Positions 14,169 to 55,609 of a stretch of 64,000 bases of DNA are shown here, piece after piece. The DNA comes from Pseudodesulfovibrio pelocollis (GTDB lineage: Bacteria > Desulfobacterota > Desulfovibrionia > Desulfovibrionales > Desulfovibrionaceae). The notes under the pieces were generated by a model. It was not told the DNA's origin and ran no database searches. It was given only the letters and a program-made list of their open reading frames with translations. Location: assembly GCF_030282845.1 (NCBI RefSeq), contig NZ_JASTWE010000002.1, positions 62,001 through 126,000 on the forward strand. Direction: 5' to 3'. Both the position numbers and the translations under genes were made by a program. The number at the start of each line of letters is the position of its first letter. The first letter of the stretch is position 1.

Positions 14169-14217
14169 TGTGTTTCTCTCCTGTTTTTCCGGGTATGAAC
14201 GAAAGACGGTCGTCTGG

Positions 14218-22542: not shown

Positions 22543-22579
22543 AAAGCTCACGCGGGAAAATGTCCCGCGTGAGCTTTTT
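22543..22579 (-). terminator. Bidirectional terminator next to mucR
   Basis: A 15-bp perfect stem (AAAGCTCACGCGGGA/TCCCGCGTGAGCTTT), loop AAATG, with T-rich tracts on both sides. It ends the mucR transcript leftwards. Confidence 0.8.
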
Positions 22580-27926: not shown

Positions 27927-28003
27927 CGGGGCGTGGCGCAGTCTGGTAGCGCGCCTGCTTTGGGAGCAGGATGCCGGGGGTTCAAATCCCTCCGCCCCGA
28001 CCA
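27927..28003 (+). tRNA. tRNA-Pro (anticodon TGG)
   Basis: A complete 77-nt cloverleaf with 3' CCA encoded: acceptor CGGGGCG/CGCCCCG, D-arm with GGTAGCGC, anticodon stem CCTGC/GCAGG with loop TTTGGGA (anticodon TGG), and a TTCAAAT T-loop with GGGGG/CCCTC pairing. It is the only tRNA in the window, embedded among phage-like genes, as expected for a mobile-element tRNA. Confidence 0.95.
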
Positions 28004-52876: not shown

Positions 52877-53149
52877 CTAGTTCACAGCTTCCTTGAGTTC
52901 CTTGCCGACGGAGAACTGAACGACCTTGCAGGCCGGGATTTTGATCTCGGCGCCGGTGCGCGGGTTGCGACCGGTGCGTCCTTTGCGCTCGGAAACTTTG
53001 AAAGAGCCGAAGCCGGTCAGGGAAATTTTGCCACCGTTTCCGAGCTCGGACTTGATGACGTCCTGGAGGGCTTCGAGATTCCGCAGGGCGTCGGCGTTGG
53101 AACCACCGGTTTTTTTAGCCATTGCCGCAATAAGTTCCTTTTTGTTCAT
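52877..53149 (-). CDS. hup: HU-family DNA-binding protein
   Basis: A 90-residue protein, MNKKELIAAMAKKTGGS onwards, with the HU core GGKISLTGFGSFKV, RKGRTGRNPRTGAEIKIPA and a FSVGKELKEAVN ending. Full length and typical of HU. The 5' leader contains an ACCAACC/GGTTGGT hairpin (about 53164-53183) just upstream of AAGGAG. It can compact and bend plasmid DNA. Confidence 0.93.
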   Translation of the reverse strand: MNKKELIAAMAKKTGGSNADALRNLEALQDVIKSELGNGGKISLTGFGSFKVSERKGRTGRNPRTGAEIKIPACKVVQFSVGKELKEAVN

Positions 53150-53193
53150 GACAAATCTCCTTGTTTCACCAACCAGCGTCGGTTGGTATTTGG

Positions 53194-53802
53194 TTAGTCG
53201 TTTCCTACGATATCCGCAACCTCATCCGGGACAAAGCCGGGAGGGATCGCGATATAACCTTTATCATCAAGACCTCTGAAGAAATTCATCAGGATTTCTT
53301 TCTTGGGCTTATTGGGTGGTGTTTGGGTCAGGATGTGCTCCATGTGATCGAACGATGCATGCAGCCCTCCCACAGGAATTCCGCGAGTGGACAGACGGGA
53401 AATCAGGACGCCGGTCAAGCGAGGAGTCCATCCTAGATCAAACAGCTTCGGCCAAAGCTTTTTGTAATCTTCGTCGCGCAACTCCAGCAAATCCCGGGCA
53501 ACCGTTTCGTCTCGGGATAATGGGGTGGAGGTTGGCTGGCAGGCCAAGCGCAGCTCGTCCAGGCAATCGAGCATGGGCCGTTTGAGTTCAATCCGGATTC
53601 CTTTGCCGTCATCACCGGTCAACATTTCCTTTTCGAGGAATCCGGCAGCTTCAGCTTTCCCCAGGATATCGCGCAACGTCCTGTACATGACGCCTGTTGA
53701 CGATTCAATTTTTTTGAACGTCGTCAGGTGGTTGCCCTTCTCAATGAGGTAGGCAGCAATTTTCTTGCGATTGGATGTGGAGAAAAAGGAAAGCGGGTCC
53801 AT
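53194..53802 (-). CDS. Winged-helix-type plasmid regulator
   Basis: A 202-residue protein started at ATG 53800-53802 (MDPLSFFSTSNRKKIAAYLI). The first about 75 residues (GNHLTTFKKIESSTGVMYRTLRDILGKAEAAGFLEKE) are a winged-helix DNA-binding domain of MarR/plasmid-regulator type. The C-terminal portion is unrecognised (RLTGVLISRLSTRGIPVGGL). Two TGACA-TGTCA inverted repeats lie directly upstream, probably its own operators. Confidence 0.7.
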   Translation of the reverse strand: MDPLSFFSTSNRKKIAAYLIEKGNHLTTFKKIESSTGVMYRTLRDILGKAEAAGFLEKEMLTGDDGKGIRIELKRPMLDCLDELRLACQPTSTPLSRDETVARDLLELRDEDYKKLWPKLFDLGWTPRLTGVLISRLSTRGIPVGGLHASFDHMEHILTQTPPNKPKKEILMNFFRGLDDKGYIAIPPGFVPDEVADIVGND

Positions 53803-53809
53803 GCACACC

Positions 53810-53871
53810 TGACATTTTTTAATTAATTGTCACTTGTTAGCCATTTTTTACACTGACAAAAATTAATGTCA
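53810..53871. promoter_or_regulatory. Tandem TGACA/TGTCA palindromes (operator candidates)
   Basis: TGACA-13 bp-TGTCA at 53810-53832 and TGACA-8 bp-TGTCA at 53854-53871, both AT-rich inside. They sit just upstream of the winged-helix gene, and another TTGTCA forms the -35 of the rightward promoter at 53949. Confidence 0.65.
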
Positions 53872-53948
53872 AGGACAAAAAACCACCGTCATACTTAGGT
53901 CGTGAAAATATATTTTTCACTTTCTATGCCATTTTTTCACTTTTCATA

Positions 53949-53978
53949 TTGTCAGAGGTCGCCGGGAGGGTGTATAAT
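53949..53978 (+). promoter_or_regulatory. Strong rightward promoter of the candidate RNA
   Basis: TTGTCA (53949-53954), 18 bp, TATAAT (53973-53978). The predicted start is near 53985. No gene with a ribosome site follows closely. Confidence 0.7.
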
Positions 53979-53984
53979 TGAACT

Positions 53985-54659
53985 GCGGCAGCGCCGGCCG
54001 ATAATCCGGGACGCAAGACCGACAAGCTCTTTGACATTTTCGGGTCTGTGGTGGCTGAGGCCAACACACACACTCTTGGCAAAGGAATACCTCATGAAAC
54101 ACCATGTTCATGCGAGACAGGAATCCTTTCAGCACCGCTCCGAACTGGACGGAGTAGGATTGAGCCGATCCTGAAACTGGCCGGGGAATACTCCCCCGGC
54201 CACCACAGCCCCGAAAAATATGGTTGACGACACAAGACAGATAATCCCTGAGGGACAGCACGCAGCGCAGAATGCGCCTCGATGCTGAAAGCAGGGGGCA
54301 CAGAATCCTCTCCCGCTTGATCTTTCGCTCCGGAGCGGAGTAACAAACTTGAAGGGGAACGAAGCGGATTCAGGAATCCATGGCAACCTGTATCCAACGT
54401 TTCCATAGGGAGCATGGGCCGCCCTTTGACCCCAGAAGGCCCGAACACATTCCCCTCACCTCCTCACCCCAAGCCTCGGGATGACCCGTCACTTGTTGAC
54501 GGGTCATCCCCCTGAGGACGGGAAGCACTTTTCGATTCAGGTTTCTCTCCACCTGATCCGGGGGAAGGTTATCCTCTCTCTAACCTTCTCCCAAATTTCC
54601 GCTCGTCGACCAACTTAAAAAAAGCCTCGCCTACCTCTCTCCGGGCGAGGCTTTTTTTT
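53985..54659 (+). ncRNA. Candidate large structured non-coding RNA (about 675 nt)
   Basis: The segment runs from a strong promoter to a strong terminator (10-bp stem AAGCCTCGCC/GGCGAGGCTT at 54622-54653, then T8) and has no convincing gene. It is full of hairpins: TGGCCGGGG/CCCCGGCCA (54178-54202), a 14-bp perfect stem GGGATGACCCGTCA/TGACGGGTCATCCC (54478-54510) extended by CCTC/GAGG, GAAGGTTA/TAACCTTC (about 54564-54588) and CGCTCCGGAGCG near 54326. CAGGAATCC occurs twice. Size, structure and mobile-element context resemble giant ornate RNAs such as GOLLD/ROOL, but homology is not established. Confidence 0.5.
54094..54174 (+). CDS. Possible 26-residue peptide inside the candidate RNA
   Basis: ATG 54094 follows AAAGGAATACCTC and encodes MKHHVHARQESFQHRSELDG and six more residues. 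Weak case; may be chance within structured RNA. Confidence 0.25.
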   Translation: MKHHVHARQESFQHRSELDGVGLSRS

Positions 54660-54702
54660 GCGCACAAACAGCTTAACACTCCACATTACCGAGCAAATTT
54701 GC

Positions 54703-54708
54703 TATAAT
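54703..54708 (+). promoter_or_regulatory. Extended -10 promoter (shared type)
   Basis: TGCTATAATTACTCG, 37 bp upstream of the GAGGAGAGAAAC ribosome site and ATG 54746. Confidence 0.6.
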
Positions 54709-54745
54709 TACTCGTCACCAATCAACCTTTAACGAGGAGAGAAAC

Positions 54746-55000
54746 ATGGGCCTTTATGAAGCACTGTCAAAAGTCGTAGCTGGCATGAAGCACAGGAGCG
54801 GAACGAAGTTCGAGACACTGAACAACTTCGATTTCAAGGCGGTTCGTGACGAAGTTCTGGAATCGGAAGGGATCTCCGTCGAGATGCTAATGGGGGAAGG
54901 ATCACCGTTTGCCCTTGAGGGAATATCCTTCTTCCCCTCCAAGCCCAACGAAGCGGCACATGTGGAGCCCGCCGACGACACGATCTGGGAAGCGGCTTAA
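54746..55000 (+). CDS. Hypothetical protein
   Basis: An 84-residue protein (MGLYEALSKVVAGMKHRSGT) behind GAGGAGAGAAAC, with its own promoter and terminator (55024-55046), so it is a monocistronic unit. No recognised family. Confidence 0.65.
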   Translation: MGLYEALSKVVAGMKHRSGTKFETLNNFDFKAVRDEVLESEGISVEMLMGEGSPFALEGISFFPSKPNEAAHVEPADDTIWEAA

Positions 55001-55023
55001 CCGCCCGCCTCTCCGGCCCTTCA

Positions 55024-55046
55024 ACCCCGCTTCTGGCGGGGTTTTT
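55024..55046 (+). terminator. Rho-independent terminator
   Basis: AACCCCGC(TTCT)GGCGGGGTT followed by TTTTT. Confidence 0.85.
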
Positions 55047-55174
55047 TGTTGACGGATATGCACCACAGTGTTTAGTGTCGGTCCAGAAACACCCAGATTA
55101 TCCTGTGTTGTTTCTCTCCTGAAGGCCTCTGGGGTGTGGTTAGCCCCGCAAGGAGGCCTTCGCTTTTGGAAAGC

Positions 55175-55209
55175 AAGAAGGCTCCGGGGTTTCCCCTGGA
55201 GCCTTCTTC
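55175..55209 (-). terminator. Hairpin ending the HU-like gene
   Basis: AAGAAGGCTCCGGGG(TTTCC)CCTGGAGCCTTCTT stem-loop 15 bp past the HU-like stop. Confidence 0.65.
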
Positions 55210-55223
55210 AGTTCTAGATCCAA

Positions 55224-55499
55224 TTAGCCATTGAGTGTGTTCTTCAGCTCTTTGGCAACACTGAATCGGACTTTTCTCCCGGGCGGGATTTCCATCGCCT
55301 CACCGGTTTTGGGATTCCTGCCCATTCGCTTTTTGGTGGGGACGGTTGAAATCGTGCCAATTCCGGCCAACCGCACCGCCCCTCCGCCGATGAGCTCCTG
55401 CCTGATGACAACCATGATTGTGTCAAGGGCAGACGTCGCCTGCATGAGGCTGATACCTGCGCTCTTCGACACTTCCTTGATAAGCTCGTTTTTTTTCAA
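55224..55499 (-). CDS. Second HU/IHF-like DNA-binding protein
   Basis: A 91-residue protein starting KKNELIKEVSKSAGISLMQA, with GGGAVRLAGIGTISTV, RMGRNPKTGEAMEIPPGRKVRFSV and KELKNTLNG. Divergent from the HU at 52877. The start is uncertain: TTG 55497-55499 is best spaced from GGGAG, with GTG one codon upstream as the alternative. Carrying two HU-like proteins suggests specialised nucleoid or partition roles. Confidence 0.85.
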   Translation of the reverse strand: MKKNELIKEVSKSAGISLMQATSALDTIMVVIRQELIGGGAVRLAGIGTISTVPTKKRMGRNPKTGEAMEIPPGRKVRFSVAKELKNTLNG

Positions 55500-55580
55500 C
55501 ACAATACTCCCGGTATGGAGTTGCACCTGAACACACACAGAAAGAATTATATAACAGTGAGAAGTTTATTGCTACCACCG

Positions 55581-55609
55581 TTGCTACTCCGCTTTTCTGG
55601 AGATATAAT
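55581..55609 (+). promoter_or_regulatory. Promoter that places its start at the ATG (leaderless)
   Basis: TTGCTA (55581-55586), 17 bp, TATAAT (55604-55609). Transcription should begin at about 55616, the A of the start codon. The -10 lies in a GGAGAT-ATA-ATCTCC palindrome. Confidence 0.65.

Follow-up and report, generated by a model that had tools for sequence, protein, structure and literature searches.

A predicted structured RNA locus on a plasmid-like element

The sequence gives good support for a predicted RNA, discrete, highly structured and about 675 nt long, on a plasmid-like element of a sulfate-reducing bacterium, and the three hairpins at its 3' end present pyrimidine-rich loops complementary to a ribosome-binding site (RBS) that is a hallmark of the same element. 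The reading we prefer is that of an element-encoded anti-RBS RNA, with a 3' anti-Shine-Dalgarno (anti-SD) module that would damp translation of the element's own genes; we put its probability at about 0.45, a little short of even.

The window analyzed, 64,000 nucleotides in length, comprises bases 62001-126000 of a 130-kb contig whose GC content is 51.5%, as against 64.8% in 298 kb of the same genome's other contigs. Genes on the contig encode PRTRC proteins E, B and ThiF, a DnaN-like clamp and two HU-like proteins, along with a ParM-like actin recognized by reading translations. Comparison of the contig ends showed no overlap. To judge from its sequence, the contig is plasmid- or ICE-like. 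A perfect 15-bp hairpin at 22543-22577, with T-rich sides on both strands, is an apparent bidirectional terminator, and two different HU/IHF-like genes, both on the minus strand (52877-53149 and 55224-55526), flank the RNA region.

The predicted non-coding RNA occupies 53985-54659 of the plus strand, as delimited by a promoter and a terminator that enclose a strong fold and no gene. Its sigma-70-type promoter, TTGTCA-N18-TATAAT at 53949-53978 (+), matches the consensus at 11 of 12 positions and is the best of six promoter-like sites in 53000-55600, where 1.1 were expected; the 5' end of the RNA is placed 7 nt past the -10 element, near 53985. Terminator hairpin T (54617-54658, plus strand) has a perfect 15-bp stem (54617-54631/54644-54658) and the loop ACCUCUCUCC, followed by a T8 tail, U8 in the transcript. 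Both signals had been claimed in an earlier note on this DNA, made from the sequence alone, and both are present, the promoter as the top site of its region and the T8 tail behind a perfect stem.

Predicted fold

The minimum free energy of the predicted RNA is -270.6 kcal/mol, which corresponds to z = -8.9 against 20 shuffles. The same note had described dense hairpins and a 14-bp perfect stem; this z score bears out the first, and the second is found at 54478-54491/54497-54510 (hairpin 54478-54510, plus strand). With the three strongest simple hairpins taken out, z is still -4.0. Control windows from the same replicon (n = 142, 183 nt each) have a mean z of -0.4, a standard deviation of 1.2 and a minimum of -4.4. 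More telling than the 14-bp stem are two long-range closing helices that the earlier note lacks. The first, in which 54037-54060 pairs with 54194-54217 (24 nt, 88% complementarity, pair probability 0.94-0.96), closes a 5' domain of 181 nt at 54037-54217 (+), with z = -5.9 for 54036-54218. The second, a 10-bp helix joining 54221-54230 to 54603-54612 at a pair probability of 0.96, closes a 3' domain of 392 nt at 54221-54612 (+), with z = -5.1 for 54219-54613.

Short repeats within the RNA say less. The repeat CAGGAATCC, to which attention had been drawn earlier, is indeed present twice (54118 and 54371), but this is chance level, since about one repeat of 9 nt would arise at random in a sequence of 676 nt. 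AATCC is mildly enriched in the predicted RNA (5 copies, 0.8 expected) and GGA moderately so (18 copies, 9.9 expected). A further candidate, UCACCUCCU at 54457-54465, identical with the 16S tail, was discarded; 5.7% of shuffles equal it.

The GGA count would suit a CsrA (RsmA) sponge like CsrB, and the antisense strand of the RNA region, which also folds well (z = -6.1), would suit a functionless region that folds well by composition. CsrB/CsrC-type protein-sequestering RNAs resemble the predicted RNA in being large, with many hairpins and repeated short motifs. Multiple GGA motifs in hairpin loops are typical of CsrB and RsmZ, however, whereas here GGA occurs in one of 14 predicted hairpin loops and the repeated loop motif is pyrimidine-rich. 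Moreover, the shuffles preserved dinucleotides, so that composition is already controlled for. We consider a sponge or a null region improbable.

Coding potential and searches for relatives

That the region holds no plausible gene, as had been stated from inspection, agrees with our results: the open reading frames of both strands are without a match to any family or homolog. The largest frames, of 118 and 105 aa on the antisense strand, match nothing in Pfam or PHROGs; the 118-aa frame has no plasmid match and the 105-aa frame no phage match. When the whole window was searched against Rfam, nothing but one tRNA (27927-28000, 26 kb from the RNA) reached the gathering score. The models for GOLLD, ROOL and HEARO, a comparison that the earlier note had proposed, were missing both at the gathering score and at E <= 10, as was the OLE covariance model, and the relation to GOLLD and ROOL entertained there finds no support in this search.

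Searches for a second copy of the RNA by blastn in 98 relatives, 395 genomes of the phylum, plasmids and phages returned none. A covariance model of the 5' domain found no homolog in 288 genomes of the family, and neither did scans for exact motifs, two in viral contigs and one in genome contigs; all matches in the homolog searches were at chance level, and the covariance model confirmed none of them. In other PRTRC contigs (G271, G112 and G031), neither blastn nor the covariance model nor a comparison of strong hairpins turned up a counterpart. The collection of homologs suggested in the note yielded no second copy in any of these sets. Families of the GOLLD and ROOL type are defined by comparative evidence; with no second member found, a new class cannot be claimed here, and the fold and loops are without support from conservation or covariation. 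Of the note's central proposal, the large structured RNA is well supported by the sequence, while the new giant-RNA class is unproven. On this evidence the locus is best described as a real-looking orphan large RNA.

An orphan large, ornate RNA might nevertheless serve as a multimerizing scaffold in the manner of GOLLD or ROOL, each of which forms an RNA-only multimeric nanocage, and the CUCUC loops described below would then be kissing or assembly loops, or incidental. Its size, multi-domain long-range helices, location on a mobile element, and own promoter and terminator all fit such a scaffold: the predicted RNA is like GOLLD in being a large, multi-domain, mobile-element RNA, and like ROOL in its similar size, its ornate predicted fold and its free-standing state. 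GOLLD, however, is a phage RNA, encoded by phages and prophages and often near tRNA islands, whereas this element is plasmid-like and not a recognized phage, no tRNA island or nearby tRNA gene is seen, and the neighbors of the RNA are PRTRC, HU and DnaN-like genes. Similarity to GOLLD in sequence or covariance model, or to ROOL in covariance model, was lacking even at E <= 10, as were homologs or other comparative support, and there is an exact match between the loops and the element's RBS. We regard a scaffold of this kind as unlikely.

Three CUCUC-loop hairpins at the 3' end

The most informative feature of the locus was overlooked in the earlier note: the RNA finishes with two hairpins (54538-54555 and 54560-54592) followed by the terminator hairpin, and all three have CUCUC-containing loops. 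Among 100 shuffles, 90 contained no CUCUC-loop hairpin, nine contained one, a single shuffle contained two, and none contained three. Hairpin A (54538-54555, plus strand) carries the loop UUCUCUCC and hairpin B (54560-54592, plus strand) the loop UCCUCUCUC; both loops are fully unpaired in the ensemble (probability 1.0 for loop A), and loop T is unpaired at 0.91.

The best sub-threshold Rfam match of the RNA falls on these hairpins. It is a match to ar14 (RF02344) at 54554-54658, with 42.4 bits and E = 2.3e-6 against a gathering score of 58.8, and it is the best such match in 60 genomes. The ar14/NfeR1 RNA silences mRNAs by means of three redundant anti-Shine-Dalgarno hairpin loops that cover ribosome-binding sites (PMC10746234). 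That alphaproteobacterial "cuckoo" RNA and the predicted RNA both have three pyrimidine-loop hairpins, the last of which is the terminator, and the 3' 105 nt of the predicted RNA can be aligned over the full length of the model. The three loops of ar14/NfeR1 are identical, CCUCCUCCC, whereas those found here, UUCUCUCC, UCCUCUCUC and ACCUCUCUCC, are of the CUCUCUCC type and belong to an RNA of 675 nt encoded by a Desulfovibrionaceae mobile element; and whereas ar14/NfeR1 is directed against general host SD sites, the loops here match the RBS type of the element. Judged by score and loop sequence, family membership fails, and the likeness is a resemblance in design.

Ordinary genes of the genus are in a few cases also followed by a structured terminator whose loop is rich in C and U, so that loops of this kind exist outside regulators too. 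Terminators with CUCUCUCC loops were considered as a lineage trait and rejected, being rare, at a frequency about that of a reversed control pattern. On the G112 PRTRC contig (G112:C66), a terminator at L066:4349-4377 shares the CUCUCUCC loop, and its tail (GGCTTTTTTGCGC) is similar; it follows an 88-codon open reading frame, and the sequence ahead of it shows only a weak fold (z = -2.8 and -1.2). The PRTRC E gene of that contig has the RBS AAAGGAGAGAG. Three sequences of the same genus (L140, L141 and L146) show weak ar14-like matches just past apparent multihaem cytochrome coding sequences. In these matches the terminators and the leading hairpins bear loops of the CUCCUCC type, and they possibly represent 3'-UTR-derived anti-SD small RNAs.

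A ribosome-binding site peculiar to the element

Genes of the contig share a stereotyped RBS, GGAGAGAAAC(a)AUG. The 130-kb contig contains 15 copies of GGAGAGAAAC, 12 of them directly before ATG, where dinucleotide frequencies lead one to expect 0.44; a single copy occurs in the 298 kb of other contigs that served as a sample of the host chromosome. Within the window the ATG-proximal sites lie at 14172(-), 19025(-), 48552(+), 49275(+) and 54736(+), and seven more lie on the same contig upstream of it. The twelve genes with this RBS include the 84-aa gene just downstream of the RNA and, by inspection, an AAA-type ATPase. Among GGAG-type start sites, called by simple rules rather than by a gene finder, GGAGAGA accounts for 23 of 120 on the element and 5 of 248 elsewhere (odds ratio 11.5, p = 2.8e-8, values that describe the RBS enrichment and not the process of discovery, since the pattern was found after the loops had been inspected). 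It is the single GGAGNNN variant strongly enriched on the element.

Loop A contains GUUUCUCUCC (54541-54550), the exact 10-nt complement of GGAGAGAAAC. Loops B and T fit two genes of the PRTRC operon, 60643 and 61798, whose sites are of the GGAGAGAGGA type: each loop complements 9 nt of the RBS of 60643, and the complementarity to that of 61798 runs to 7-8 nt, with 8 nt for loop T. Three copies of GGAGAGAAAC are not ATG-proximal, and two of these are antisense and less than 570 bp apart, namely loop A and 55110-55119. Once places that are explained by an RBS on the other strand are excluded, the windows over these two are the strongest on the contig (by inspection of the window list). Measured against all 180 predicted starts, the complementarity is not exceptional (fractions of 0.12-0.44 when the loop cores, 9-10 nt, are permuted); permuted cores come close to the real ones, given the general richness of Shine-Dalgarno sites in G and A, and the argument therefore rests on the stereotyped, element-specific subset.

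The 84-aa gene (54736-55000, plus strand) has GGAGAGAAAC directly before its ATG at 54746 and is preceded by a promoter-like TCCACA-17-TATAAT, with TG before the -10, at 54680-54708 (+). Since the GGAGAGAAAC copy complementary to loop A sits 186 nt downstream, the RNA could be a cis-acting leader or attenuator of this gene, with hairpin A pairing with its RBS on a read-through transcript. Between the two, however, stand a perfect terminator and that separate promoter, and eleven other genes are preceded by the identical RBS; we think a cis-acting role very unlikely. The next intergenic region contains a structured stretch on the plus strand, at about 55050-55223 (z = -5.9 for 55060-55225), in which UUGUUUCUCUCCU at 55108-55120, on the same strand as loop A, is a 13-nt complement of AGGAGAGAAACAA. 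This stretch has a weak promoter at most (TTGACG, with a poor -10), and is possibly a second anti-RBS RNA.

The divergent winged-helix protein

Transcribed divergently from the RNA is a gene for a protein of 202 aa (53194-53802, minus strand), which the earlier note took for a winged-helix regulator with TGTCA sites overlapping the -35. AlphaFold2 (pLDDT 81) and Foldseek (best match NadR, E = 5e-4) agree, placing it as MarR-like. The sites are likewise real: the shared intergenic region contains two palindromes, TGACA-N13-TGTCA at 53810-53832 and TGACA-N8-TGTCA at 53854-53871, as candidate operators. They are two of the three TGACA/TGTCA palindromes that the window contains, where 0.74 would be expected, and the -35 itself is overlapped by a TGTCA half-site. 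Autoregulation together with control of the RNA is plausible from this arrangement. Close relatives of the protein were found in none of 85,000 species genomes or viral contigs. The relatives it does have correspond to the C-terminal half of plasmid proteins linked to ParA, so that it could instead be a replication or partition factor.

Such a factor, Rep- or ParB-like, would make the locus a replication or partition control region, with the RNA as a copy-control or primer RNA like ColE1 RNA II and the 71% AT stretch at 53808-53948, with its TGACA/TGTCA repeats, as the protein's binding region. The AT-rich, repeat-containing intergenic region and the adjacent HU gene are consistent with this, as is the position of the winged-helix relatives, which in plasmid records from Desulfovibrionaceae come directly after ParA where the record begins. 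A DnaA box and a GC-skew turning point were looked for here, however, and neither was found; a strong intrinsic terminator ends the RNA, which does not run into an origin; and no ParA gene adjoins. A replication or partition region thus seems quite unlikely.

Proposed function

According to the anti-RBS reading, the mobile element would make a highly structured transcript, free-standing and about 675 nt long, in which three consecutive 3' hairpins offer (U)CUCUCUCC loops able to pair with the GGAGAGA(AAC) RBSs of the element's genes. Pairing of loop and RBS would block 30S binding, and translation of many element genes would be damped together. The large 5' domains would probably provide stability or an assembly scaffold, and the adjacent winged-helix protein probably gates transcription of the RNA through the TGACA/TGTCA sites overlapping the -35. 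Promoter, terminator, fold, loop accessibility, complementarity and element-specific RBS enrichment were computed; we infer transcription, translational repression, gating and the role of the 5' domains. The 450 nt of 5' structure exceed what an anti-SD module needs, and this counts against the anti-RBS reading.

Known anti-Shine-Dalgarno RNAs, such as NfeR1, target scattered host mRNAs. Here, by a more speculative extension that we hold doubtful, the element would have a private RBS "dialect" (GGAGAGAAAC-AUG) with one or two cognate antisense RNAs, and host SD sites would be spared, the whole constituting a replicon-wide, self-specific translational switch. If this is true, one shared RBS plus complementary RNAs would amount to a simple on/off switch for a whole plasmid at the level of translation. 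Most giant bacterial RNAs are, to our knowledge, still without a function, and a large orphan RNA would in this case gain one that is directly testable.
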